From Hirudinaria manillensis (lineage: Eukaryota; Annelida; Clitellata; Hirudinida; Hirudinidae): DNA of 64,000 nt. The stretch lies in contig CM067529.1 in the NCBI GenBank assembly GCA_034509925.1, positions 9,179,501 to 9,243,500 of the forward strand, in the 5' to 3' direction. Below the pieces are notes generated by a model. That model did no database searches. It was not told the DNA's origin and saw only the letters and a program-made list of their open reading frames with translations. Both the position numbers and the translations under genes were made by a program. Shown here in pieces: positions 5,540-58,608 of the stretch; position 1 is the first letter of the stretch; every line of letters begins with the position of its first letter.

Positions 5540-5621
5540 GTGAGTTTTGAAATCAAAATTTTCAAGGGGAATTAGTTACAGAAACTGCAATGATTTATTT
5601 ATTTTAGTTAAACTCCAAGAA

Positions 5622-6872
<1,251 letters not shown>

Positions 6873-9646: not shown

Positions 9647-12600
9647 ATGAACAACAAAACTGATCAGTGGAGGTTTTTATGGAATTTGTCAAGACGACTC
9701 AAGAAATTTGAAGTTAGGAGCCTTCAGGATTTCTGTCAGCCACTTTTTGGTGTACAAGTATACAAGTGGTCGTGTTTTGAATTGTTCGAAAATTTCGTTG
9801 AAACGAGGAAAATAAAATTCACGTCTGAGAAGAAACCCTTCAATTGGTGCATTCTCAAAGAGTTGCTAGAGAAAATACAGAGGAAAGATTTGGCGAAAGA
9901 ATTGGATGATTTTGGTTTGTATTTGATTAATACTTTAAGGCTGATCGGTTTTTTATAGAGTTATAAGTTTTCAAACAACTTCTAGGAAATAATTTCGAAG
10001 ATGCTACAGTTCTTTTCAAAGGTAGATTAAATTTCATATTTGTTTGACTAACGTATTAGCATCCATTGCATTATTTTAATTTTTACAAAGTTGAAAATTA
10101 AGGTTACCTTAATTTAAAAATCTGAAAAACTAGAGTCAAAGAACAAGCTCCAAACAGGACCTCTGCTATCCGAAAACAACAGCAGGATTTACAAAGGCAA
10201 GAGTTAAAGTTACATGTTCATTATGAATGAATTATATGGAAAAAGCATCTGCTTATTGATTTTCAACTCACTTATCGTTAATTAATATATTGATATATTC
10301 TTTACAAGGAACCTTCTCAGGACATTACGACGTGGTCATCAAAGAATTTTACTTGCAGCAAAAGCTGAGTCGCGAGGAAGAAATTGTGGAGAAAAATTTA
10401 TTTTGTGACCACTTGGATCTTGTCATGAGTTTTAAGCATGAAAATGTTTTGGGTATTTATTAATGCATATATTATAACACTCAGAACTACTTCTGAATCA
10501 ATAAAGATGTGTTTGTCAGGTTTCAAGGACATTTTCTTGGCGGTGAAAGAACATTCACCTCCATTCCTTGTTTTCGAATATTTCCAAGACATGGATTTGG
10601 CTCAGTATTTGAGGAGCGACAAAGGAAAGTACATGGACACAAACATATCCATTAGATACGCCAAACAGGTTAATTTTCATTAGGGTTTGAATTCGGGCTG
10701 CTACGTTATAGATATTTCCTTCGTGATTCAAGATAATCGACGGTTTGAAGTATTTGCACGACAATAAAGTCCTCCATTGCAATCTGAGAGCTGACAACAT
10801 CCTTCTGCAAGATGTAAATAAGATCAAAATCAGTGGTCTTTTATCAGCCAGAAAGCTAAAGGATGGTGAAGAAATTTTAGAATTAGATGAAGGTTAATCA
10901 TATAAATCAGAATGTCGAAATGTTTCATTTTTATATGGACGAGGATTATTCAATTTTGGATTTAAAAGACGCCAAGTTGGCGATGAAATGGATGCCATTG
11001 GAAGTTGTGCTTCACCGAAGGTTCTGCAAAGCTTCAGATATTTGGTCTTTTGGAGTTGTTATCGTGGAGATGTTCAGTTTCGGAAAAATTCCTTATTCTG
11101 GTAAAAGTTTCAAGTATCTATTCTTATTTTATTGGTCGGCTACATTTTGTTTTAACTTTTTTTCAGAGCTATCGAATGAGGAAACAATAAAATTTATCAG
11201 CGAGGGTAAACGCCATCGTAAACCCGAAAAGTGTCCGGACTCAATTTATAACGGCTTGATGTTAAAATGCTGGCAAATCGATGCCAACAAAAGACCAACT
11301 CCTGAGACGATTTTAAATATCTTGAATAACAACTCCACCAATCAAAGTAATTTAGACTGGCTTACGTTTTATTCTGTGCTTGATTTAGCTTTATTTAAAT
11401 CTTCATTTGTAGAAATAAGAGACATTCAAATCACAGACATTGTTTCGAATCTGCAGAACAGGAGAACCATATATATCAGAAAATCGAAAACGAAATCCAC
11501 CTTTCCGCAAACAAGGGTCTCCTTTCAGGACGATATTTCCCCTGAACAAATAACCATCACTAGAGAGGTTCTGGGGGAAGGTATACATGGAGTGGTCTCA
11601 AAAGGTTGTGGTCGTGATTTTATAAAGACGAAAACTTTGAATAAATGCAATTCGCGTTATGATCAGGCATTCTGAAATGTGGCGGCAAAACCATAGAAGT
11701 TGCCATGAAGACAATTAATCCACATACGGCCACACGCGAAGAATTTCAGCGAGAAATAAACATCATGAAGAAATTACATCATCCGAATATAGTTTTTATG
11801 ATTGGAGTTTGTGAACATTCTGACAAAAACATTTACCTCGTTACCGAGTTGATGTCTAACGGCTCGCTTCTTCAGCTTTTAAGAGAAATGCCAGAAGCTC
11901 TGCCAACACCTGGACATCTCTTGAATGCCGCCATGCAGGTATATAATAAAGGTTTACAAATTCTTAACGTGTTCACAATGAACTAGTTAGAGCAAGAAGT
12001 TATCTAATTCCAAACCCTCCAAGCTAAAGCAGCTGCTCCCTTACGAATAAATCGAAGAAGTTCATTAGATGAAGTCAGTGGTAAAGTCTGCATCCAGTTG
12101 GGTGTATGAGTTTCTCGGTCAATAACAATCCGCACTCAGTAATAAATATTTGCATAAATCACTTGAATTAAATCCTTCAGGTTTGCAATGGAATGTCTTA
12201 CCTTGAAGACATGAACATTATCCATCGAGATTTGGCTGCAAGAAACGTCCTAATAGGAGATGATTATGAAGTTTTCAAGATATCTGATTTCGGGATGTCG
12301 ACAATAACGAATGGAACAAATCAACCCGAAAAAGGTTCTCAAATTTTCGTAATAACGGTCAAATCTTTTTATAGTCGGAGACTTAAAACTGTATTCATGC
12401 CAACCACGTTTATAAGTGACGCAATATCTGGAAAGACTGCTATAATTTTGAGACGATATTTGCACTTATATATATATTAAAACTTCCAACTATTTGAATT
12501 TGTTTATTTTCTAAATTCCAGTTTTTGAAGTCTTTAGTATCTAATTGTATCTAAATATTTCGACATTGTCCTGGATATTTCAACAATGAATCAGCATAGC

Positions 12601-13370
12601 AATTGGCCAATAAATTTAGTCAAATCAACTGATAAAGTTTCTTGGATAACTTATGTAAACGTAGCAAATTTCGATTGATATATTTGTAGATAAAGAGACA
12701 GCTTTCTAATATTTTGCACGTATTTTTATACCCTTATTGACTTGTCATTAGCATCGTTTTCGTTTTTATTAGTTATTTAGTAAAATAATATATTAGCTTT
12801 ATATATTTGAAATTATATATAAATATATACATCCTTATATATATAATATATATATATAAGCTGAGGATGTCTGTATATATGCATATATATATATATATAT
12901 ATATATTTGTTTTCTTTTTGCAGTGGACAAAATCTCTCTTAGATGGTCGGCTCCAGAAGTGCTGGAAAGCCAAACTTACGGGATGAAAGCAGATGTTTGG
13001 TCATATGGGATATTGCTGGTGGAACTCTTTGCACGAGGAGATTGTCCTTATAAAGGTCTGGCGAATAAAATGTTGTCATATTTGACCTCCTCAACCATTG
13101 TTTCTTAGAATGAAATAATGTGCGAGATTGTACTAATATATTTCAATCAACTATTTAGAATGGAATATGAAGGAAATAACGCCTAAAATACTAAGTGGCT
13201 TTAGACATTGCCAACCCCACGATTGTCCCGACGAAGTTTATATGCTGATGACCAAGTGTTGGTGCAGAAATCCTGATAACAGACCCTCGTTCCAATCCAT
13301 TATGGAAGAACTTAAAAACATTGCTTCTCGATTTTCCGTGGTTTATTTGAATCCTGTGTCAACAGTATAA
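9647..13370 (+). CDS. DED - pseudokinase - tyrosine kinase fusion protein
   Basis: Exons: 9647-9914, 9986-10021, 10134-10196, 10309-10452, 10520-10668, 10733-10892, 10969-11100, 11167-11346, 11413-11604, 11667-11938, 12181-12334, 12924-13055, 13159-13370; 697 residues, all phases consistent. Residues 1-90 resemble a death-effector domain: LFENF helix, then [21 protein letters not shown], with the RxDL motif at 79-82, very like the FADD DED. About 110-365 is a pseudokinase: Lys134 kept, but HRD is HCN (235-237) and DFG is GLL (255-257). About 426-690 is an intact tyrosine kinase: LGEGIHG loop, VAMK Lys456, Glu471, HRDLAARN (547 on), DFG 568-570, WSAPE. No SH2, FERM or membrane segment is seen, so it is probably cytoplasmic. 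The tandem kinase pair recalls JAK JH2-JH1. Exon 3 probably ends at a GC donor. Function is inferred: DED-recruited signalling kinase. Confidence 0.85.
12776..12907. repeat. TA-rich microsatellite in a kinase intron
   Basis: Several runs of TATATA, the longest just before the acceptor at 12923, inside the 589-base intron that separates the DFG exon from the APE exon. This is the longest intron of the gene. The minus-strand open frame here is only a product of the repeat. Confidence 0.8.
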
Positions 13371-15439
13371 TTAAAATTAAATATTTTTTTGATCATTTGA
13401 TTGCATTTTATTACAAGCTCGAATTTAATAAAGACATTTCTTTTGAGTCAAACGTCTGACGTCTGAATTTGCTATTTAAAAAATTTCTTCACCACATCTT
13501 TTGATCATGACCAGCGAACATTTTGAGGTATTGATGTTTATGAGGATAGTGAAGTGATAAAAAATCGAATTCTTTTAGTTTTGTAATAAATCTGTTTTTT
13601 TTTTTTTGCATTTGATGGTGTCTTCATATTAACCCTTGGATGTTCAAGGTAAAAAAAACCTTCCACTTTCAGCCAAGGGGGGTACGAGTGTTCCCCAACA
13701 TATTAGTTGTTACTAAGCGTCAACCGAAAGTTTGTTATTAAAAATATGTTATTAGATTCAGGGAATATAAAATATATAATTTTTATTAAACAATTATTAA
13801 ACAGTGCCATGTGCCCAAAGCAGTTCCACAGGGAGTCGTGGATAAACACGTGGATTATACAGGAAATCAACTCTGAAAACCAAATATTTCAGTACAGGAG
13901 TAGTTGCCTTATTGAATAAGTTAGATGAGGAAAACGAGTTTTCAGCTTCAGTAGACATATTTAAAAGTAGCACTTTAAAAATACGTCAGCTGAATTGAAA
14001 AAGAGTGATTTATTAGATACGCTTTAGTCTGCTTAAGCCATAACTAATAAATAAATTGTAATTAAATTAAGTTAATTAAGTTATAAGTCTAACTAGATAG
14101 ATCTGTATACTCTGAAGAAATCTTGGCAAATAGGATTTCTTAGATAATTTATTTTTTAATGTTTTAATGGGCTTTGAATCAAGACATATTTTCCTGAACA
14201 GGTAAATTATTTGATTCTGAGTTGGTATTTGATACAATCCAATCCCCCGAAACTTATGAAATGCCCCCGAATCAGTCTAAAAGAAAGTGTGGCAGTAACC
14301 GGTAGTAATCATATCTTTGATAACAGCCTTGAAGTCATACCGAACTTAATTTCTAAAGCAAAAGAACAAGAAAAAATTATTAGTGATTTGTAATTTAATG
14401 ATTCGAAATCTGTAAACGTTGCGAATCTTAGAATGTAAGTATCCAAACCAGAAAGTGAAGCTAAACAAAGGAAAAATGCTTCTAGGGAAAAGAAAGATTG
14501 TCTCGAAGACTTAAATAATACGCTAAATATATACAGCAATGCTAAATATGTCTTATTGGGAACTTGTTGGGAACGGTGTTCTCCTAGATTGAGAACTACG
14601 CTCAACAAAAAAATACAAAAGCAAATCCATGGATAAAGTGAAAGCCCTTCTGAAGCTGTAAATAGATTCAGCATCCTAATCTTAAATTCGATGCCTGCTT
14701 GCGATGTGACCTTAAAAAGTAGCAATTTCTACTTTCAGTAATGCAAATTCCAGCTTTAAATTACATACTCATTCAAATAAATACAGATTCATTAAAGTAT
14801 TGGATAATATTTAAGGCACATATAAAGTAATCCAAAACTTTATATTTAAGAAATGTAGACTTTACATAATGATTTAGTGAGTACATGTTTTCAGTCACAT
14901 TAAAGCCAATTTCAATAATAACATATATTTTAATATTATACTTTTTTTAGAAACTTGCCTTAACAGTTTTTGTAAAAACGAAACATAATAAAGAAATAAT
15001 CGACCGAGGCCCATACTTAAGGTAATCGATCAAAAATCGTAAACACGATTCGTTATTTCCGCGACGGCTATGGAGTTGATTTGTAGATTTTGAGCAGCTT
15101 GGGCTCATCGGGCGATATTCAACGCTTATATGTGAATTTTCCAAATAGTTTCTAGAATATGTTAATAGAACATTGAAATTGCTTGAATCCACTGAAGCCA
15201 GACTCGAAGGTAAATTGATGAACCGCTTCTGAGAATCCGTCACCCATTAGAAGCTTTCATTTTATTAAGGTTCTTGAGGAATACTGATATTCAACTTAAT
15301 CAAATTTTTGTCTTGTGAGATATTAGAGAAATCTTACATAATTTGGGGTTCCTCTTTTCTGATGTCAAAAGATGGGTTTTATTATTTTTATTAATGGGTT
15401 TTATATTTTATTAATTCTATTCACAGAGAGATCAGTAAT
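13371..15439. other. Intergenic DNA between the DED kinase and PDK1
   Basis: An AATAAA near 13427 serves the DED kinase. The rest is AT-rich with short open frames (for example 14309-14725 minus, 14947-15243 minus) that show no domain or splice structure. Nothing recognisable as a gene or mobile element. Confidence 0.4.
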
Positions 15440-19693: not shown

Positions 19694-22291
19694 CCTGCTT
19701 GGGATGTTCTATTTTGTCAGGGCTTGTACCGGTCATATACTTTCGAAAGCCAGGCAACAGAAGAACCACAACAGCTGCAGAGAAAATAATTGTTATTTTT
19801 GGTTGATATATCTTATCATCACTTTTAACTAACAGAAAGCATATGAGACAAGAAATGAATTTATGTTCAGGCCCAGCCACATGAAAATGGAAAAGAGAAC
19901 AACCATCAGGGGATAGTACTGGAATCAAAATATAGTCTGCCTTAGTATGCAAAGTGCATTATTTAAAAAAAACTTAACCTCTTACAAGTTTTGGATTTGA
20001 CTCTTCCAACTGCAACAGTCCATTTCTGATTGATAGAAAGTGTTTCTTTCCATGTAGAATGCGTGTGCATATACTATGGAATCGAGATTCTTTCTGAGAA
20101 TCCCTGTGGCAAAAGTTGATCAGACTTTATTTCAAAATGAGAAGACTAAAATAAGAATAGCATATGCAGATTGTCATGTTTTGACTGAGTTTATTTACAA
20201 AAGAGTGAATGATGATGAACCTAAAAACGAGTGCAAAAACATTAGTTGCCCCATGTCGGTCTCTAGTATGTGACATCTCCCTCCTGAGTATTGACCCTAG
20301 TCAAACCCCTATCTATTGGGAGGCTTGATTTGTCTTCCACATTGGGGAATTAATGGGTCCTTCACTGCTGGAGGCTGAATGGATGCCAAGGGTCCTGTCT
20401 TAAGTGGCAACGTACCTTCTGCTCAGGCAGAAAATTGGCTCCAGCACAACAATTACATTTTGTCCATAAATGTAGCTCTCAAATTTGCTACAGGCAAAGA
20501 CAATAGCTAGCAACTCTTTTTTATCTGTGCAAAGTTTATCTCATAATCTGTGAGGAAGCGACTGCTGTAAGCAACCAGCCCTTCTCCCTGAACAAGACAA
20601 GCACCTAGGTCATAACTAGAAGCATCTGCCTGAAGCACAATATCTTGCTTTGGACCAAAAAATTTAAATTGTGGCAAGTTTGCAACAACATCTTTATTTT
20701 TTCCAGAGAAAATGTATGAGTTGCTGACCATCAAAAAACTGAGTTTTTCTTTAGCAAGGACCTCAATGGCTCGGTGTATTTCACTATCTTTGGAACAAAC
20801 TTCATAACATAGGCAGGTATGTCCATTAATTGCCTGAAGTCAGCTAAGCATGTAGGTGGAGGCATGCCAGTGATTGCTTTTACTTTTTCTGTATCAGCTT
20901 TCACACCTGCTTGCGAGATGATGTGACCCCACGAACGGAGTTGGCTCGGAATCTTAATAATGTTGGAACAGACACCATTAAGAGAAGTCCTTCCAAATTG
21001 GCCTTTGGTATATGATGGCATATGGTTTGTATAAATTCTCAAATAAATTATGATTGATATAAATTTATCTGCCTTTTATTAAAATTATTATTTTACTTTC
21101 CATTTTTTGTCATTTTGCCATTGTTTGACTTAGAAATCTAAGCAGAATATCATAAAAAAGGAAAATAAAAAATAATTTATTGGCATATGTTTGAGTTTTG
21201 TGAACAAGTCTAATAAAAAAACACTAGAAATACAAAAGTACAAGTGATTTAATAGAAATCTACAAATAAGTAAAGAGATAAAAATTAACAAATCCCACTT
21301 ACCACTCAGAAAATTTGTATAGCACTGGAAGAAATTTGGGCCCAAGAAAATCCAATGAGAAATACAGAATCCCACAGAGACTAAAGATTGTTAAAAAGGA
21401 TGGACTGAGGAGCCAAGCAAGACTATAAATCAAATAATTGAACAGGTTAGTAAATAAAATAATTTCTCGATTAAGTTCAAGAAAAACCCCTCACAAATAT
21501 ATAGCGGATACCGAAAGAGTTAGTATGACTGGATAAATACTCTGTTTCCATTCTAGCACGTTATTAAACTTGATGATCAGCTCTCGATAAACACATAAGT
21601 CCTCCTTGAGGCGGAATAACTCAGCTTCAAACTACAAAAGTTTGAGTAACAAGTACATTTAGACCTAATTAAGCCCATTTGCAACAATATTTTGCTATTC
21701 AATCAAATTAGCTTATTTGGCATCGAGGTGTTAACGAATCAATCTTTCATTTTTGATCACTGATGTCGTCCAAATTAAATCCAAATTTATTAAATAACAT
21801 TAAATAACCTCGTCCCCTAATGATTCAGCCTCCATGTGAACAATCAGTCAGCAGGCCCTGTTTTGTTTTGATGTGAAACTTGAGTTAAAAATAGGCGTTG
21901 CCAATTATAAAAAGCGACATCTTGGGGGAAACAGATTGCAAAAACTACAACGAATATAATTTGATTAACATCAATATTATAATAAAAATTACTTGTACAA
22001 AATTAGATATAATGAAACTTACCCCAAAAACGAGTTAGTATGATTATGTGCATTGTCCGTAGGTAAAAGTTTACTCATATTGCAGGGGTCGCTGGCAGAC
22101 AATTTGAAGCTGAGCCAGTAATGAAATAAGTAAGAATCTCTTGGAAAGAGAAAATGTAACAAGATCTAACCTAGTCTCACAGATATTAGTAGATTAAAGG
22201 CGATTCTCTAGCGAAAATATTTTCCTTAATTCGACGGCCTTACCCCAGATAGCAGATCTGTGGACAGCAACGAGCTGTCGATTTCAGTCAT
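19689..22291 (-). CDS. ARL6IP1: ARL6IP1, ER-shaping reticulon-homology protein
   Basis: Minus-strand exons: 22291-22244, 21631-21495, 21422-21303, 20103-19986, 19918-19834, 19774-19689; phases fit throughout, giving 197 residues (human protein 203). Family landmarks seen in order: a short acidic N-terminus, VLEWKQSIYPVIL entering the first hairpin, AWLLSPSFLTIF and FLGPKFLPVL for the second membrane segment, a soluble loop with SRFHSIC and LEESNPKL, then YYPLMVVLFSIFMWLG and SYAFSVVVLLLPGF for the second hairpin. This two-hairpin topology bends tubular ER membrane and supports ER-phagy and ARL6-linked trafficking in vertebrates. The C-terminus lacks the Lys-rich tail of the human protein. The 1.2-kb third intron contains a Gypsy fragment in the same orientation. 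Confidence 0.93.
20507..21042 (-). mobile_element. Ty3/Gypsy pol fragment inside an ARL6IP1 intron
   Basis: Two minus-strand frames, separated by a frame break near 20732, encode the end of a Ty3/Gypsy reverse transcriptase (region with WGHIIS, VKAI, DFRQLM, KYTEPLRSLL) and the start of its RNase H (VLQADASSYDLGACLVQ, VAYSSRFL, NFAQIKKSC). No LTRs, gag, protease or integrase are seen nearby. It is a broken internal piece, inserted in the same orientation as the host gene, and cannot be autonomous. Confidence 0.85.
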
Positions 22292-37608: not shown

Positions 37609-40414
37609 CTACCATGCCTGCTTTAACAAGAATGGATTCAAAATATCTGCCTCCAGCCTGAGGTCTTTCAGTTCAGCAGGCATTTCCATCAACGTTACCA
37701 CTTCTTCCCGATTATAACCTCAATTGCTGACTGATGATACCTATTTTATTTATTTACAAACTACTCATCCACTTTTAAAAAGTATAGAAAAACCTGTACC
37801 TTTTATTACTGGTTCTCCAGCTTCTTCAATGACTTCGCTGGTCTCAATAGGTCTTACCAGCGCCTCACGATTAGCACTCCAAATGCTGGCCAGCTCATCC
37901 AATACCTGTTAAAGATAAAACCTCCAAATGTTATTGTATTGCCATAGAAATTAGCACATTTATTTTCTTAAAACTTAGAACAGAGTAAAGCAATAACCAA
38001 AATGTTTTGGTGGAGGGGGGGGGGGAATATCCTAACCTGCATCCTGTAATCAAACTGAGATCTATCACTGTCAGCTACCAGTGAGGCTAATTGTTGCACA
38101 AGTCTATTAGCTTGCTGGTACTTGTCTTTGTTTGTCAATGGCCTCTCATTCCTGTCCAAATATTAGCAATTATGCAATTGGATGTTAAATGAATAAACAA
38201 AAACAAACATTGCCATTGATGCCACTCCCACATTTGCCTTTTCTCCACCCAGACCTTTAAATATTTTCTGGGTCTCATCGACCTCTTTCCTCATCCATCT
38301 TGTGGCAATCCCAACAGGAGAGAATAATGGCATATCTTTTAATCTCCTGGTTGCTAGCATGTGCTTGCATGGCAAAACCATAGACTTGTAAAACAAACAC
38401 ATACAGTCATTTTCGTTAAGTATTTTCCCAGCAATCTCTGCTACCACAAAATCATTTTCCAAGCATGCTTCCAAATTTGTGGACTCGTCCAGCTGCCGCT
38501 TAACAAAAGAAAATGCAAAATTTGTCAGCACCTCTCTGTAGCTTAGTTCCACTGGACTGTAGCCAATTATATTGACTGGTATGCATTCTGTTGCGTTAAC
38601 GAAGGTATGGTCCCTCTCACGTCGCATGCATTCAATAAGTGACATTAAATCTTTGAAAAAGACAGGCAGGGGACTTGAGAGAGCAGCGACGGCCTTAATT
38701 TTCTCGTTTATAGATTCCAGACAATTTGTCGTCCTTTTGTCGTGTGTTACATTTTGTTGTTGCCAGCAGTGCACCCACTCGTGTCTGCATGTATGCCAAT
38801 TTGCATCTACATATTTAACAACAGGTGAGGGCATGCCTCCTTGGAAATCTCGATGGAGTTCCTCATATTCTCTTTCAGAAGTTGCATATGCCATCTTTTG
38901 AAGAGCTTTCAGTGCAGACAATTGTTGATCCTCAGTGATGCCCATTTTTGAGGCAGTTATTTCTCTGCTCATAGTGTGCAAAACGTGGAATAGGCATAAC
39001 AGCAGAGTAGCCTATTTATTTAAAATTCATTAATTTAATTACATAACTTCAGGAGATATTAAGGCATTCAAAATATTGGACAAATACTCAAACCTGGGGG
39101 AAAGACTGTTGGACACTTCTGTGCTTGGCCGTATCTTTTTCAGTAAAAACTGTCACAATTTTGTTCCAGTTTTCGTTTTTCTCTTTGAAGACCTCTAACA
39201 TGCTGGTGAGGTTATGGAGATCTTCAGAGGCCATCAAAAACAGGGCAGCAATCTCACTCTCGCCATTTGGCCCAACAGCAAGCATAATATGAAGTGGCAT
39301 TCTCAAATTGGTCAACTTGTATGTTGCATCCATTAGAACCAACTCAGGAAACAATCCGAAGAACCTCTTCATCTCAGAGTCTTGGAAGAAAATGGCATTC
39401 ACAAGACCATTGACATCAGTTCTTAATTCAAGATCAGCACCTATTAAAAGTAATACAAACTAGTAAGAACTTAACCTAATTTTGAAGGTACATTTTCATC
39501 AAACAGCAAAAATAAAATTAATTACCATTGTACCCCTTTAAGATATCTAAAAGCAATTCCATGTCTGCAGTCATATTTGGTTTGGATGCCAAGTCATTTA
39601 GAGTTACTCTCTTACCTTGAAAATACATATTCAAATGTTACGGTATATTTATTATGGATTCAAGTAGTGATTAAAAAATGATTGTGAATATCTTGCCTGT
39701 CTCCTTCAGAACCTGTTCTTTTATTAGTGATTTGTTTCTACGTATGCCCAACATTTGACAAACACTCTTTTCTTCACTTTCATTTGGTTTTCTGCATTTT
39801 TGATAGTTCTCAACCTGCACTTAAATATAGTTACATTTAAATTTGTGAAAGCATTACATCTGTAAAAATGTAAAAAATTATGGCTGCACATTACCTTCTC
39901 AATAGGATGGTTATGTTCTTCAACCATTTTTTCTATGCATAACCGGCTACCATCATCTGATGCTTTTATCCATATTCCATATGGACAATTCATCTTGAAC
40001 GTGCTTAAATCAAATTAATTATATTAGGACTGAATGCCCCCTTGGGCTAAGCTTTGAATGGAATTTTGTTAAAATTTAAAGCCCACTCGCTTTCTGAAAT
40101 CGAACACGAGACTTGTTCTATCGCATTAACCAGGAGCAAGAGCTGGGTTAGGATTAGGGCAAGTTTTACCTTTGATTTGGTCTCTTCCCCGTAGATCGGC
40201 TCTGGAAATTTTTCCCGCCATGGTAACAAGCATAACGAACGGTATAGTAAACAAGTTCGTCTCTCAGTTCTCTTTTAATGCCTTTTCTTTCCGCAGCCGC
40301 AATTTTTCTGCTATCTCTCTTATACAATGCAACCGACGACTCTTTTTCGTAACTTGAAATCTTGCTCTGTAATTCTACAAAAGAATCAAATCGATCGCCA
40401 ACCTTCAAAGACAT
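37609..40414 (-). CDS. ZSWIM-like: Domesticated MULE transposase-like SWIM-domain protein
   Basis: Minus-strand exons: 40414-40170, 40003-39895, 39814-39697, 39615-39526, 39440-39094, 39011-38209, 38151-38037, 37905-37800, 37718-37609; 680 residues. The order matches ZSWIM1/3-type genes derived from Mutator-like elements: an N-terminal FAR1-like region (FDSFVELQSKI, then MNCPYGIWIKA), a MULE DDE-like core (LVLMDATYKLT with Asp225, and FTEKDTAK), TTNCLESINEKIKA, and a SWIM finger with CMC ... CKH near residue 525. Multiple introns and an intact frame argue for a host gene rather than an active transposon. The exon 3 donor is GC (ACAG|GCAAGA), needed to keep phase. Role is unknown; SWIM proteins commonly bind DNA or protein partners in the nucleus. 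Confidence 0.8.
38013..38025. repeat. G homopolymer beside a ZSWIM-like exon
   Basis: A run of about 10 or more G just inside the intron that follows the exon ending at 38037. A slippage-prone tract; length may be unreliable. Confidence 0.7.
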
Positions 40415-52240: not shown

Positions 52241-52246
52241 TTTATT
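52241..52246 (-). promoter_or_regulatory. Poly(A) signal overlapping the RPAP1 stop codon
   Basis: The minus strand reads TAA ATA AAA at the end of RPAP1, so AATAAA begins at the third base of the stop codon. If this signal is used, the 3' UTR is only some tens of bases. Confidence 0.5.
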
Positions 52247-55200
52247 TACAATATCAGCTTCGCGAACTGTTTCTGTCTTGAATTCGTGAGGTTTCCATAA
52301 AGTTCAAATCCGAAGTCGCGCTTTGAGTTTATTTGTTTATAGAGTAGAGCATGCGACCTTACCGGATCTTCCCAGATATTTATCTCCTTTGCAATTTGCG
52401 TTTTCACGTCTCGCTCACTTTTGGTCGTTTGCACAGATGAGAATAGGAAATGGTTAAGATGATAAATGGCGATCAAGTATGGAATTGGTGTTCTTGTTTG
52501 TGTGAACCATTTCATTCTGAGGCAATGGTAAAACATCTTGATGAAGGGAATGTTGCTCACATCTCTAGACTTTAGCAACACATCGATATTGCAAGGGAAC
52601 TGATTCAAGGGAAGGAAGATAAAGCGAGCGACTTCAACCTTTGTCAACCACATCATTTGCCACAGGGAGCCGCTGTCGTCGAACAAAAACAATGGCAGCA
52701 AAACCATGACATCAAAAACTGGAATTCCACCAAGAAATTGCAAGTAAACATCCAAAAACGATTCATAGAGCTCCTTTAAAAAGCACTGCACCGTTGTTCC
52801 GTGCTTTCTTTGGTTCCTGATGTAAACCTCTAGAAGTTGATCTAGATAAGAGTATGTCACTCCATTCTCCATCTCTCTTCCAGCTGCTATAACAGCTTGA
52901 ATCAACCTGACGAATTTCAACTGATCGGGGATCTGATGCAAAACTTCTGGTCTGCACTTTTCAAAGACCAATAGAGCTCTTATAGAATGGCAGGATAGTT
53001 GCTCTAAATTTTCCACTATGTCGATAAGTTCTGGATTTCTTTTCGATTGGTTTTTGAGGTCATAAAGATGCCTCAGAGGTTCAAGAAGCCAATCACATCG
53101 CATGATGTTTTTCTCACAAACTCCTGCCATCATGCATTTCATCCCAAGTCCATTAAGTGAATCTTTGGATAATGCAATGTCTTCTTCATTGAAGAATAGC
53201 TGAACGTAAGCATTGCCCATATTTGAGAGGTTATTTGAGATGTCGCTGTCAAAGTCAATCAAAGGAGACCTCTTAGTATCAATGATAAATCTTTGAAAGT
53301 TCTGGCCCAAATTTGTTTTGGAGACACCAAAGGCATCACTGAAGAATCCCTCATGAAAGATGACATCCGTAATAAGCTCTGAAGCCATTGCTTCATCGCC
53401 TCCATGGAGAGATGTCAACAGATTTAAGGCTACTTTGTGATAAAGCACCAAATCCAAATGGCTTTTATGTTCTGGAGAATAGACAATTTGTTTGGCCATT
53501 TTGATAAGAAAATACACAAATTGGGCCTCAAACCTTGAAAACCAATTTCTGCATAAGTCAGAATTATTATAGGCAGAAATAAACTTTGAGAGATAACTAT
53601 GAACCTCTCGATGCTTTAACACTTTTATAAGAATCTCTTCATTTCCAAAACACGGATGAGCCAATGCAAGAGCCACCCTAGTTATTCCTACCATAAAGGA
53701 AGTGGTGGAAAGAGGATCAACCACTGGGTGCCATTTAATGTTAGGAGGGGATAATGGAGAAGGTGGTGTGTGTTGTAGTGAAGTTGAAGATCTTGGAGGA
53801 ATGAGCATCACTTGTTGCACTTCCAAATGAGACGAGACCAATTTCTTTTGTGGAGGTTTTGATTCACCAACAGGTAGTGATTCCAAAACTTTGGAAGGGT
53901 CTGCCCACAATGACCCGAGTGTTTTGAATGAGGCACATGACTCTCCGAGACTTTCAAGTATTTCAGCACCTTCGGTCATACAAGAGTTAACTCTGAGGAA
54001 GCTCACAGCTCTTTCAAACGACACGGAATCCAAACAGGGAATGAAGACGAGAGTTTTAAATTCCGATGCCTCTGCAGACAATTTTCGAGGAAACTTGGCG
54101 AAACAAGTGGCAACACAGTTTAATGACGATGCTAGCGTGCCTGATGTAGTATATTTCTGCAAATAATAGTGAGACATAAAATCATCGGTGCACTTCTTGC
54201 AAATTTTAATAACGGCAGAAAGGAGTTCTGAGAGCTCAGTGTTCATTTCTTTTTCATGTTCTCCAGGTGAAACATTTATCCCAGCCTCTGCAAATGACAA
54301 GAGCAAAGCAGCTTCGGGGGTGTTATACATTTCACCAGGAGACTTGGAAAGTGCATGCAGTCTTGTGACAATGATTGCGATGCAACTTTTGAATTTCTCG
54401 TATCCCAATCCATAAATGATAAGGACAATAAAGAACCTCAGAGATTCATAATACAAGCAGGATGGCGAGACTTCTTGTTGGAGATGTTGCAAAACATTGT
54501 CAGCATATTTTTCAAAAACGTAAGTAGCAATGTTCCCATCAGAACTTGATAGAATCCTGAGAAGCCTTACAACTTTGGACTGCAAAACTACTTTACCATG
54601 TATCTGATATTCATCTTTAAGAGGTAAGAATTCCTTCACAATCGAGTCTGTGAGTTGCCGATAATTGATTGTGTAAGGAGAATCGTTATGCTCGTGATGG
54701 AGGTGATGATGTCGACAAATCCTGATGATGATATCGAGCAAGTTGTTTACTACTGCATTATGGAGACGGAACAGGTTCAACAGATAAGAGAGTCTAGGCA
54801 GAAGGGTCATCTTCAACAATCCTTCCACCATGTCCTTTCTGAAAACATCTTCAACTTTCATGAAATTGCCTCCATCGCTTTTATTTGAGTCATGGAGTTT
54901 GGCCAAGTCCTCACTGGTGGCATTCATCACAGGCTGCTCATATCCTCTGAACCAGGTAAAGACATGATCAAGTGCTGCCTCATCTTCGGAATTGACAAGC
55001 AGTGCATGAAGAAATTCCACTGCCGTGATAATGACAGTATGAGCAGATGAATCCAAAGCTGCTCTTGCCAAAAGACCTGCATCTCCGGCGACAAGCACTG
55101 GGATTATGCTGTTTGACAAACGTCCATGGAAGGATCCCAACTTAGCCTGCTTCACAATGCATGAAAGCATTTTTAAGCCAAAATCTTGTTGCTGTTTAAA

Positions 55201-56013
55201 AGAGCTTCTAACCAAGAGGAAAATCTCTTGCAATGTGTACCCTCCTCTCTCTGGTTCTTCATCATGGTGGTATAATTCTGTGGTGTAGTTCTCTTCGGTT
55301 GTTATTTCTCCATAAAGACCAAATCGAGTTGAGACTTTTGATCCCAACTTATCTGTGGATGTAAAGCCAGGTTCTTTATCTTCAGCGATGTTGTTCTCAT
55401 TTCTGCCTTCATTCAGAATCGTATCACTTCTGACTTCGTTTAGCTCTTCCTGTAAGATTTCTTGTTCCTTAATCGACTGGCTACTTATTTCCTTGGAACA
55501 TTTTGAAATGGCTGAAGTATCAAGCTCATTGTATTTGCCCTTGCTTCGATTCTTCAAGAAAGCCATTGTTTCGGTACCGAATTTACTCTGGAGCTGCTTC
55601 ATCTCATCCAAAATCTCCTCAACTGAATGCTCAGCTATGACTTTTTCAAACAAATCCATATCATCATTTCCAGGAGTTGGTTCATTCGATGCTGTTGGGA
55701 AAACTTGATGTAGAGCTTTTGGATGTGACGATTCATTGCCATCCAAGAATTTGTTTCCATTCAAATCCTGTTTGGAATGCACACAAATTTTGGATTCTCC
55801 TGAATCAAGATGTGCCCTTTCAATGCTGGAATTTAAATATTTCTGTGCAAAAATACTTGTCTTTTTAACTTTATTGATTGTCTTTGGAACGGTTTGAGAC
55901 ACTTTTTCAGTAACATTTTCGGCCTCAAATGAATTCTCAGTACCAAGGAAGTTTCGCTGCATGAGTAGCAAATCATTCTCAGAATCAGTCGTTTTAGGAC
56001 GTTTGATGAACAT
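52246..56013 (-). CDS. RPAP1: RNA polymerase II-associated protein 1, intronless
   Basis: One uninterrupted frame of 1255 residues (human RPAP1 is 1393). The N-terminus MFIKRPKTTDSENDLLLMQRNFL matches the RPAP1 start (RPKPxESExDLLxxQxxFL). Residues about 118-160 (HSVEEILDEMKQL, MAFLKNRSKGK) correspond to the RPAP1 N domain. RFGLYGEI and ERGGYTLQEIFLLVRSSFKQQ (about 230-270) correspond to the conserved C domain. The rest is a long helical-repeat-like region, ending in NLTNSRQKQFAKLIL. RPAP1 acts with RPAP3/R2TP, GPN proteins and RPAP2 in cytoplasmic assembly and nuclear import of Pol II and in Mediator-dependent transcription. The lack of introns is unusual beside intron-rich neighbours, but the frame is intact and no poly(A) tract marks a retrocopy. 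Antisense frames within it are shadows. Confidence 0.93.
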   Translation of the reverse strand: MFIKRPKTTDSENDLLLMQRNFLGTENSFEAENVTEKVSQTVPKTINKVKKTSIFAQKYLNSSIERAHLDSGESKICVHSKQDLNGNKFLDGNESSHPKALHQVFPTASNEPTPGNDDMDLFEKVIAEHSVEEILDEMKQLQSKFGTETMAFLKNRSKGKYNELDTSAISKCSKEISSQSIKEQEILQEELNEVRSDTILNEGRNENNIAEDKEPGFTSTDKLGSKVSTRFGLYGEITTEENYTTELYHHDEEPERGGYTLQEIFLLVRSSFKQQQDFGLKMLSCIVKQAKLGSFHGRLSNSIIPVLVAGDAGLLARAALDSSAHTVIITAVEFLHALLVNSEDEAALDHVFTWFRGYEQPVMNATSEDLAKLHDSNKSDGGNFMKVEDVFRKDMVEGLLKMTLLPRLSYLLNLFRLHNAVVNNLLDIIIRICRHHHLHHEHNDSPYTINYRQLTDSIVKEFLPLKDEYQIHGKVVLQSKVVRLLRILSSSDGNIATYVFEKYADNVLQHLQQEVSPSCLYYESLRFFIVLIIYGLGYEKFKSCIAIIVTRLHALSKSPGEMYNTPEAALLLSFAEAGINVSPGEHEKEMNTELSELLSAVIKICKKCTDDFMSHYYLQKYTTSGTLASSLNCVATCFAKFPRKLSAEASEFKTLVFIPCLDSVSFERAVSFLRVNSCMTEGAEILESLGESCASFKTLGSLWADPSKVLESLPVGESKPPQKKLVSSHLEVQQVMLIPPRSSTSLQHTPPSPLSPPNIKWHPVVDPLSTTSFMVGITRVALALAHPCFGNEEILIKVLKHREVHSYLSKFISAYNNSDLCRNWFSRFEAQFVYFLIKMAKQIVYSPEHKSHLDLVLYHKVALNLLTSLHGGDEAMASELITDVIFHEGFFSDAFGVSKTNLGQNFQRFIIDTKRSPLIDFDSDISNNLSNMGNAYVQLFFNEEDIALSKDSLNGLGMKCMMAGVCEKNIMRCDWLLEPLRHLYDLKNQSKRNPELIDIVENLEQLSCHSIRALLVFEKCRPEVLHQIPDQLKFVRLIQAVIAAGREMENGVTYSYLDQLLEVYIRNQRKHGTTVQCFLKELYESFLDVYLQFLGGIPVFDVMVLLPLFLFDDSGSLWQMMWLTKVEVARFIFLPLNQFPCNIDVLLKSRDVSNIPFIKMFYHCLRMKWFTQTRTPIPYLIAIYHLNHFLFSSVQTTKSERDVKTQIAKEINIWEDPVRSHALLYKQINSKRDFGFELYGNLTNSRQKQFAKLIL

Positions 56014-58608
56014 TTTGAAGAATTTCTTAACTGATTGTTATGTCAAAAAGTACCACCAAAATATTTGTATTTTGTGGTTAAAAGATGCTCGATATGCGTA
56101 TTTGCGCATTTTTAATTATATAATGTTTATTTAATTAAATTTTTATATAATTAAATTTTATTTAAATCGGTAGAAATTAGTTTATAAATTATATATTACT
56201 CGTTATATGTAAAATAAGCCTTATACAATAAAAATATCTAAAATAATTGTTTAAATATGCTTTTATTTCGAAATGAACCAACGAGAAATCGGCTCGAGCG
56301 ATACCGACGAAGTTTCTTGCGCTCCTTTAAATGCTATTATTTTGGCTTTAATAATATTTTGTTTCTAATTCTGATCAGTTTGTGTCTCCTACCATCGTTT
56401 TGTGGTTGGTGAGTATTTTTTAGAATAAAAATTCACGCAAAATAAACATTGATTTCTGCAATATATCGTGAATTTTCACGGTTAGATCACGTCTTGGGTA
56501 CATTTCTATGCTAACCGACAATCGTATATTATTCTATTTAAAAATAAAGTTATTATTTAATAATGAAGTTAATAAATGAAAATATAATTCTTTAAAATGT
56601 AATGGAGTTAAAATTCAGTGTAGTAACATTACATCGATGCTTCTTAATGACTTTGGAACAAGTATATGGTAAGGGTCAATCGAGATGCAAGTACTACAAG
56701 TCCCCACCTTAATAAAGAATATAGCAAATAGATTGAACAACTTTCTCCTTCTGTAACCATATAAAAATCTATCCAAAAGACATTGGAACGACCCACAAAA
56801 AGGAAAAACACATATGGACCTTAAAGTTCAAATCAGAGCAATGTTAACGTTGAAAGTCTGCGAAAGTAGAGACCAGACTTAGCAAAATGAGCTGAGAAAG
56901 GCAAAAATAGAGAAGATTTGTTCAAGAAGAATCCATCAGCAGAATTTGCAAGAAACTCTTCCTTGGAATTAATCGACAGGGATCCGTCCGCTTTAAAAAT
57001 TTCAAACTCCTTAAGCTTCCCGGTGTTGAGCCGCATCTCGTGATCAAACGGATAGCTATGTCTGTTTATTTTCCTTCTGGATTCACCCGTCGTCTATGAA
57101 AGACTCTCATTGGCTACTTTACGTCGCCTTACAACCTGCCTGAAGCATTTCCACCTCGCCTTTGTGGCTTTCTTCCGTCGACCCTGCCGTCAAAACTTAT
57201 GCACTTAGGCTTTGTTTTCATCAACGCGGCATTTTGGAGATAGTAACTCGAGTACTCTGGCTAAGCGGTCGTCCACATTGGTCCCAGCCAGACCATGGTC
57301 CACCGGTCCCGCGTTTGTCGGCCAATGAAGTGGCCTCTACGTTCTGCTGAGTTGTTGAAACTTAAGAAACCGAAACACGTTCAGTGTTGCCAGAGGAAGA
57401 AAATGAAAGGCAGCTCCAGACAAAGTGTTGCTTGAATATTTGGGGCGGGTCTTCCCAGAAAAATCAGTTCAAATGAGGACAATGACAGTTAGCTGAATTC
57501 TTTATGATTTGGAGTTGCAAGTCTAGGACACGAATAATTACATAAGGGACACTTAGTATAGATCGGAAGCATATACACTTCACAAGTCGCAGTGGTTGAT
57601 AGGTAGTTTGCTTCCACATTCGTTCAAAATCGGAATAGTGACAAAATGTTTCTGACGCCCCCGACATTCGATTTGCCGCCTCTTTCTTGTTGATATCACG
57701 ATGACAATATTATCTTCGACATTCAGAACTTTCGAGGACGTCTCAAAAGCGTTTGATTCGGTCTCGCATCAATCGATAATGTCTCATGATTCATCTTGTC
57801 ATTAACGAGAGTTGTTTGTTTTGCGTTCAGAATTTAGGTAAAGAAAAGAGCGGCCTAGAATCATAAATAATCCTTTGCTAGAAATACAATGTGCAGTCCA
57901 AATTGTACGTGCCAAAATAGGTAGACCAGAGTATTTGTTAGAAATTATTGTTTAAGTTGTTATTGTATGTAAAGTCGAAAACTTGCTGGACAATTATGTA
58001 AGAATAGGAAGAACATCCTGAAATAATTTGATATTGAAATGTTTTTTATAGTGCAGAGAATGGCTTTGAGATAAATTACGCTGAGTGATATTTAAGAGCT
58101 TATGTTTATGAAAATAATTCATTTGTAATAGATAATTTACAATAAGAGGAGCCTTTTTAAAAACCATTTATGTAGCGCTTTCTCCAAGGACACTTGAAGC
58201 GGTACAAACCGGGTCTCGAACATTATACGGTTACGACTATTACCAATACAGTAAGTACACCTGAGCCAACTTGATGACTAAAGAAGCATATTTGCAGCTC
58301 AGATCCACGAGTTTCACAAAACTTCTGCTTGGTTTGCAAGTGGAAGCACCGACATGGAAAAGTACAAATTGCATGTTTTTGCCTCAAAGTGCTTTCTCAG
58401 AGCCGGTGTGCACCGTGTGATGTTGTGTGTTCTGATGTACCGAGAAATGACAATAACTTTTTCATTGATAAATTCGATATTGTCAATAATGGACGTCGTC
58501 GTTAATAAAAATTTTTATTTGATTATGCAATTTATTTAAATTGATTACATTAATCGTATTGAATCATCGAAACGTGTTTTTATTTCCATTTTTATCGTTT
58601 ATTTTTAT

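Follow-up and report, generated by a model that had tools for sequence, protein, structure and literature searches.

Fusions of a death-fold domain with a kinase are known from RIPK1, RIPK2 and IRAK/Pelle, which are recruited to an immune or death assembly, while the tandem arrangement of two kinase domains is known from the JAKs, in which the pseudokinase JH2 controls the active kinase JH1. The subject of the present analysis is a gene that resembles both in part, located on the plus strand at 9647-13370 of a 64,000-nucleotide stretch of the Hirudinaria manillensis genome (assembly GCA_034509925.1, CM067529.1, positions 9,179,501 to 9,243,500). This whole stretch is referred to as the window; it sits on contig 4 of the genome searched, which comprises 148.4 Mb in 23 contigs. 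On balance, it is probable that the locus is one annelid gene encoding a DED-like domain, a Src-type pseudokinase (K1) and a Src-type active tyrosine kinase (K2), with the origin and action proposed below. It shares the fusion of death fold and kinase with RIPK1, RIPK2 and IRAK/Pelle; these, however, are TKL Ser/Thr kinases with a DD or CARD, whereas the product described here combines a DED-like domain with a pair of tyrosine kinases.

DEDs occur in several other combinations. It was reported that lophotrochozoan RLRs carry a grafted N-terminal DED (PMC8998645). Such proteins resemble the DED-kinase in that a DED has been grafted on an immune-type protein within the same broad animal group, and a gene of this kind is present in the leech genome (L004), but they are helicase sensors rather than kinases. 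In amphioxus, a DED is found together with NACHT (PMC2575513). Engineered DED-SH2/PTB adaptors (Howard 2003, cited in PMC2575513) unite a DED and tyrosine-kinase signalling in a single chain; they are artificial and route kinase signals to caspases, whereas in the leech protein the DED would carry the kinase itself. In human cells, Src-family kinases acting as separate proteins phosphorylate caspase-8 at Tyr380 and restrain it (PMC6320982), which makes the DED-kinase plausible as a hard-wired version of this relationship.

Gene structure and kinase domains

As rebuilt from the sequence, the gene opens with the ATG at 9647, is closed by the TAA ending at 13370, and contains 13 exons with 2094 nucleotides of coding sequence, i.e., 697 residues plus the stop codon, with no internal stop. 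Its features are as follows.

9647-9914, 9986-10021, 10134-10196, 10309-10452, 10520-10668, 10733-10892, 10969-11100, 11167-11346, 11413-11604, 11667-11938, 12181-12334, 12924-13055, 13159-13370, plus strand: whole coding gene, 13 exons
9674-9913, plus strand: DED-like domain, residues 10-89, entirely in exon 1 (Pfam PF01335)
9881-9892, plus strand: RKDL, residues 79-82, within the DED-like domain
10181-11321, plus strand: pseudokinase K1, residues 118-369, exons 3-8 (Pfam PK_Tyr_Ser-Thr, 185 bits)
10197-10308, plus strand: intron 3, the sole GC-AG intron, with a GCAAG donor
11562-13313, plus strand: tyrosine kinase K2, residues 428-679, exons 9-13 (Pfam, 271 bits)
13314-13370, plus strand: C-terminal tail with Tyr690 (YLNP) and a terminal STV, read from the translation
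13427-13432, plus strand: AATAAA polyadenylation-type signal about 57 bases past the stop codon; the hexamer recurs within the gene and proves little

The remaining 11 of the 12 introns are bounded by GT-AG. The spliced reading frame has 0 stops versus 43 and 41 in the two alternative frames, and the GC fraction is 0.394 (39.4%) in exons versus 0.279 (27.9%) in introns. Spliced realignment of the 697-residue protein onto the DNA returned identical exons, which is a consistency check and not independent evidence. The initial annotation, made from the letters of the window, had proposed a single gene whose phases fit over 13 exons, an RKDL motif at residues 79-82, and a degenerate kinase followed by an intact tyrosine kinase. 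The present model bears this out: it is one continuous open gene with exactly those coordinates, the motif lies at those residues in the translation, and the catalytic motifs are broken in K1 and intact in K2.

The exon structure bears on one rival explanation, namely that exon 1 forms a separate DED-only transcript and that the kinases belong to another gene or an alternative product. The open frame of exon 1 extends merely 14 codons into intron 1 before a stop, so that a short DED-only protein would be possible, and, since phase-1 introns lie on either side of exons 2 and 3, these two could be skipped in frame. On the other hand, the gap between exons 1 and 2 is 71 bases with fitting splice sites and phases, which would probably leave little room for an end signal and a second promoter. 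A separate transcript is considered quite unlikely.

Both kinase domains score far over the Pfam cut-off. K1 retains the beta3 lysine (Lys134), but its Gly loop is gone and its catalytic motifs have changed from HRD to HCN (Asn237 in place of the catalytic Asp), from DFG to GLL (255-257) and from APE to PLE. K2 has all of its motifs, including GEGIHG, Lys456, HRDLAARN (Asp549), DFG (Asp568) and APE; the presence of HRDLAARN, together with the fact that the best 60 of its 2691 PDB matches are all tyrosine kinases, indicates that it is not a TKL-type Ser/Thr kinase. No Tyr is found in K2 from DFG to the APE region, i.e., in the activation loop, where 24 of the 32 tyrosine-kinase loci surveyed in this genome (the window's own counted) have one; the SH2-kinase locus L039, discussed below, is also without it. 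Within the whole protein, Pfam at E up to 1 gave no SH3, SH2 or FERM. NCBIfam yielded general kinase matches only, every one below cut-off, and Rfam gave nothing in the window at gathering thresholds.

Lineage of the two kinases

It appears from the sequence scores that K2 is closer to Src than to the JAKs. Its top single-domain PDB matches are a reconstructed Src/Abl ancestor (211.1 bits) and PTK6 (199 bits), as compared with 118.6 bits for JAK1 JH1. The top single-domain matches of K1 (best 60 of 2219) are Eph receptors, followed by BTK. An EGFR two-kinase chain, the first row for both domains, was set aside because its scores are sums (2 x 148 bits for K2, 2 x 97.5 bits for K1); the 208 bits of the JAK1 chain are similarly the sum of 87 and 119.

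Intron positions are the cleanest character for the kinase lineage. The kinase domains contain five introns in K1 and four in K2, and four are common in position and phase (alignment column/phase 24/1, 133/0, 195/1 and 240/1), a degree of sharing with a chance of about 4e-10 under uniform random placement. For comparison with the rest of the genome, two catalytic-loop patterns gave 45 tyrosine-kinase sites, 32 of which became loci, one being the window; the tally thus covers 31 other loci, a match being the same phase within one codon. It omits 13 of the 44 other sites, to which no locus was given; two of these were modelled with K2 as guide and have one of the four introns (L019) and none (L015). 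Among the 31 loci, L039 has all four of the K2 introns, L058 has the three that it covers, and L059 has the two that it covers; four loci share one intron and 24 share none. The JH1 of the genome's own JAK (L053) shares none of the four. The intron pattern is accordingly common to K1, K2 and the SH2-kinase gene at L039. An SH2 lies upstream of the L039 kinase; Pfam reports no SH3 there, and the end of an SH3 is perceived by eye only. On account of the SH2 and this apparent SH3 end, the L039 gene looks to be of Src type. The last residues of L059 are EGQYQPQDS, which resembles the Src tail.

The K2 scores and the recurrence of its four introns in L039 are what the protein shares with Src-type kinases (Src and PTK6, and here L039/L061, L058 and L059). 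It differs from them in having no SH3 or SH2, a doubled kinase with a dead first copy, no loop Tyr in K2, and a DED-like domain in front. With the JAKs, it shares a pseudokinase immediately before an active tyrosine kinase, but it is without FERM or SH2, its introns and scores are of Src type, and the genome has a separate JAK. The latter lies on contig 5; exons for JH2 and JH1 are present there, and the JAK FERM region is matched below threshold (22.2 of 26.1 bits).

In a tree of 42 rows, the JH1 and JH2 of this JAK pair with their counterparts in the PDB JAK1 chain (96/85 and 99/96), K2 falls in the Src-type group (82/38), and K1 stands beside L059 (92/32) on a very long branch (2.72). Constraint tests on this tree reject K2 with JH1 (p 0.038) and reject neither K1 with JH2 (p 0.466) nor K1 with K2 (p 0.418). 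The first panel, a tree of 18 rows and too small to decide, rejects nothing (K2 with JH1, p 0.107; K1 with JH2, p 0.331; K1 with K2, p 0.132). Left out of the larger tree were the window's own locus (L048), the JAK JH1 already included (L053), a fragment (L029), the degenerate kinases L013, L014 and L016, and L017 and L018, which are the same genes as L030 and L050.

Several of these results weigh against Src descent. The Src placement in the larger tree is weakly supported and the K1 branch is very long; K1 with JH2 is tolerated, while K2 with JH1 is rejected only narrowly, and by the larger panel alone; moreover, the introns of the other loci come from automatic models of 3 kb pieces. The tree tests, together with the identical order of pseudokinase and kinase, are also what speaks for the rival explanation that the gene descends from a JAK by loss of FERM-SH2 and gain of a DED, in which case K1 would be JH2 and K2 would be JH1. 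The bit scores of K2, the absence of shared introns in the genome's JH1, the rejection in the larger panel, the separate JAK elsewhere in the genome, and the lack of FERM or SH2 by Pfam all stand against such a history, which is considered very improbable as a whole. For K2 in particular, bit scores, intron positions and the larger tree make JAK descent unlikely, and its Src descent appears fairly well supported; that of K1 is likely, by way of its introns. The JAK-like label of the initial annotation is right for the layout and most likely wrong for the lineage.

Other unusual kinase arrangements were observed in the same genome. At G000:C8:3218658-3266690 (L021), a unit of about 1.9 kb is repeated head to tail in at least 26 copies, all of which give equally scoring kinase matches; the unit has a 471-residue open frame, and the frame that was scanned contains a protein kinase domain and a TFIIB-repeat match barely over cut-off. 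Four adjacent frames of 651-660 residues at G000:C6:8653424-8689347 (L024) have two kinase matches each, and the scanned one has two tandem kinase domains. L014:831-4007 and L016:3018-6599 are unbroken frames of 1059 and 1194 residues with an SH2 ahead of a degenerate tyrosine kinase, the SH2 of L016 being slightly under cut-off. L061:93-3494, immediately upstream of the SH2-kinase gene at L039, is an unbroken 1133-residue frame with a reverse transcriptase and zf-RVT.

The DED-like domain, its candidate partners and other features

The Pfam DED model matches residues 10-89 with 24.8 bits and E 2.7e-5 when a 101-residue piece is scanned, and with 18.7 bits and E 0.0021 in the whole protein. 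No death-fold family besides DED, with DD, CARD and PYRIN among those covered, appeared in the Pfam scan at E up to 1. The strongest argument for the predicted DED comes from searching all 148 Mb of the genome in six frames with PF01335: up to E 10, five matches were returned, exon 1 being one of them (22.4 bits, E 0.0165); the five candidates scored were everything that the first pass of the search gave. The best PDB sequence matches of the N-terminal domain are FADD DEDs at E 0.41 to 0.65. In the FADD alignment, Glu22 stands opposite FADD Glu19 and R79-x-D81-L82 opposite FADD RHDL; a Glu together with R-x-D-L forms the charge triad of DEDs. Separately, the DED query matched C2 weakly (E 0.46, with one stop), which was dismissed as chance.

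The four other DED matches in the genome comprise one in a FADD gene (a DED, then a death domain), two in a tandem-DED gene, and one in an RLR-type helicase. The tandem DEDs adjoin caspase-domain exons carrying QACQG and are here taken as parts of one caspase gene. The helicase (L004:472-1767) has an N-terminal DED-like domain that scores 24.7 bits, below the Pfam cut-off, in agreement with the published grafting of DEDs in lophotrochozoan RLRs. The animal has candidate partners for a DED to bind, namely FADD and the tandem DEDs next to a caspase domain.

On the other side, the following results weigh against a working DED in exon 1. Its Pfam score of 24.8 bits lies below the curated cut-off of 35.9, although two of the four other DED matches in the genome fail the same cut-off, so that a score under it is not conclusive. 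A profile built from the other four genomic DEDs compares weakly with the exon 1 domain (probability 6.9%, P 0.005; P 0.2 for a death domain as control). In the alignment, Asp28 occupies a position at which all four other DEDs have Phe; presumably this is the surface Phe of helix 2, corresponding to FADD Phe25, a hydrophobic contact of FADD. Because Asp28 replaces Phe, the canonical filament contacts may be impaired. A point against the proposal as a whole, and not against the DED itself, is that no Tyr was seen by eye, across one intron, between QACQG and the small-subunit ADYLL of the caspase, so that the site used by Src on human caspase-8 is not seen in this animal; a target of the Tyr380 type was considered and set aside for want of a matching Tyr in this linker.

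Two rival explanations draw on these points. The N-terminal 90 residues could be a decayed or unrelated helical piece rather than a working DED, in which case the protein would be a plain tandem Src-type kinase. The score under cut-off, the PDB match to FADD at E 0.41 only, the weak profile comparison and Asp28 are all compatible with this, but exon 1 is among just five DED matches genome-wide, the RLR helicase DED has a similar Pfam score, and both RxDL and Glu22 are retained; we consider this explanation unlikely. Alternatively, the DED-kinase might be a dominant-negative or chain-ending regulator that binds assemblies by one face, marks them by phosphorylation and damps caspase activation. 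Asp28 would then block the other face, and the restraint of caspase-8 by Src phosphorylation in human cells (PMC6320982) points the same way, whereas the caspase linker of this animal offers no Tyr before the small subunit; such a role is rather improbable. Overall, the FADD-like DED claimed in the initial annotation is supported as a DED-like N-terminus, in that DED is the sole death-fold family matched and RKDL and Glu22 are kept, and is qualified by the score below cut-off and the change from Phe to Asp28.

Outside the gene, the window has an intron-free single open frame of 1263 residues with RPAP1 domains at 52246-56037 (minus strand). Two open frames at 2074-2775 and 5544-6113 (plus strand) share similar stretches of 11 residues and are perhaps a tandem duplicate; neither gave a Pfam match at E up to 0.01. 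Mobile-element-type remnants lie on the minus strand at 20507-20839 (an RNase H-like reverse-transcriptase piece) and at 38163-39011 (DUF5575_C barely over cut-off, ZSWIM and SWIM below).

Elsewhere in the genome, contig 23 is the mitochondrial genome (invertebrate code; partly N), with the order cox1-N-cox2-D-atp8-G-Y-cox3-Q-nad6-cob and, further on, nad4-C-M-rrnS-V-rrnL-L-S-A-L-nad1-I-K-nad3-S-nad2; its tRNAs were located by ARAGORN, and atp8 and the rRNA genes were positioned by their neighbours. We take this to be the annelid order except for two swaps of adjacent tRNAs. A nuclear contig also bears a copy of cox1 (G000:C9:3026446-3027786) that scores the same as the mitochondrial one; it either was inserted into the nuclear genome recently or reflects an assembly error.

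Proposed origin, mode of action and meaning

With regard to origin, a Src-type SH3-SH2-kinase gene would have lost its SH3 and SH2, its kinase exons would have been duplicated in tandem with loss of catalysis in the first copy, and a DED exon would have been joined in front of the pair. The JAK layout would thereby have arisen a second time, independently.

In action, the DED would bind another DED of the same genome, that of FADD, the tandem-DED caspase or the DED-RLR, and the resulting assembly would crowd several copies and bring their kinase domains together. K1 may hold or release K2, as JH2 does with JH1 in the JAKs. Because K2 is without an activation-loop Tyr, it would be switched by crowding, allostery and contact rather than by loop phosphorylation. 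Once active, K2 might phosphorylate neighbours in the assembly and Tyr690 in its own tail as a docking site; the YLNP motif there is presumably suited to docking of an SH2 protein. This signalling idea, built on sequence comparison, is plausible. More specifically, and only tentatively, the gene may encode a natural DED-guided tyrosine kinase in which Src-type signalling is wired onto FADD/caspase-8 or DED-RLR assemblies, the DED replacing SH3-SH2 and the JAK switch being rebuilt from a different kinase family.

In the open-licence literature, judged by titles and abstract openings among the matches listed, no DED-tyrosine kinase is named, which agrees with the initial statement that no described protein of this layout was known to its author; the open-licence leech literature contains nothing on this gene among the matches listed. 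The words "death" and "DED" occur 0 times in the main text of a survey of holozoan tyrosine kinases (PMC8662651). The combination of a DED with a tyrosine kinase is apparently undescribed, and this is apparently the first death-fold/kinase fusion with a tyrosine kinase; unnamed predicted relatives may well exist in other annelids.

If the proposal is true, this is, to our knowledge, the first tyrosine kinase under the control of a death-fold assembly rather than of a receptor or SH2. It would link cell-death assemblies directly to tyrosine phosphorylation and show that the connection between Src-family kinases and caspase-8, made by separate proteins in human cells, can be hard-wired. It would offer a simple system for asking how death-fold assembly switches on a kinase. 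A second evolution of the JAK-type pseudokinase-kinase pair would, in addition, allow one to ask which features of the pair the switch needs.

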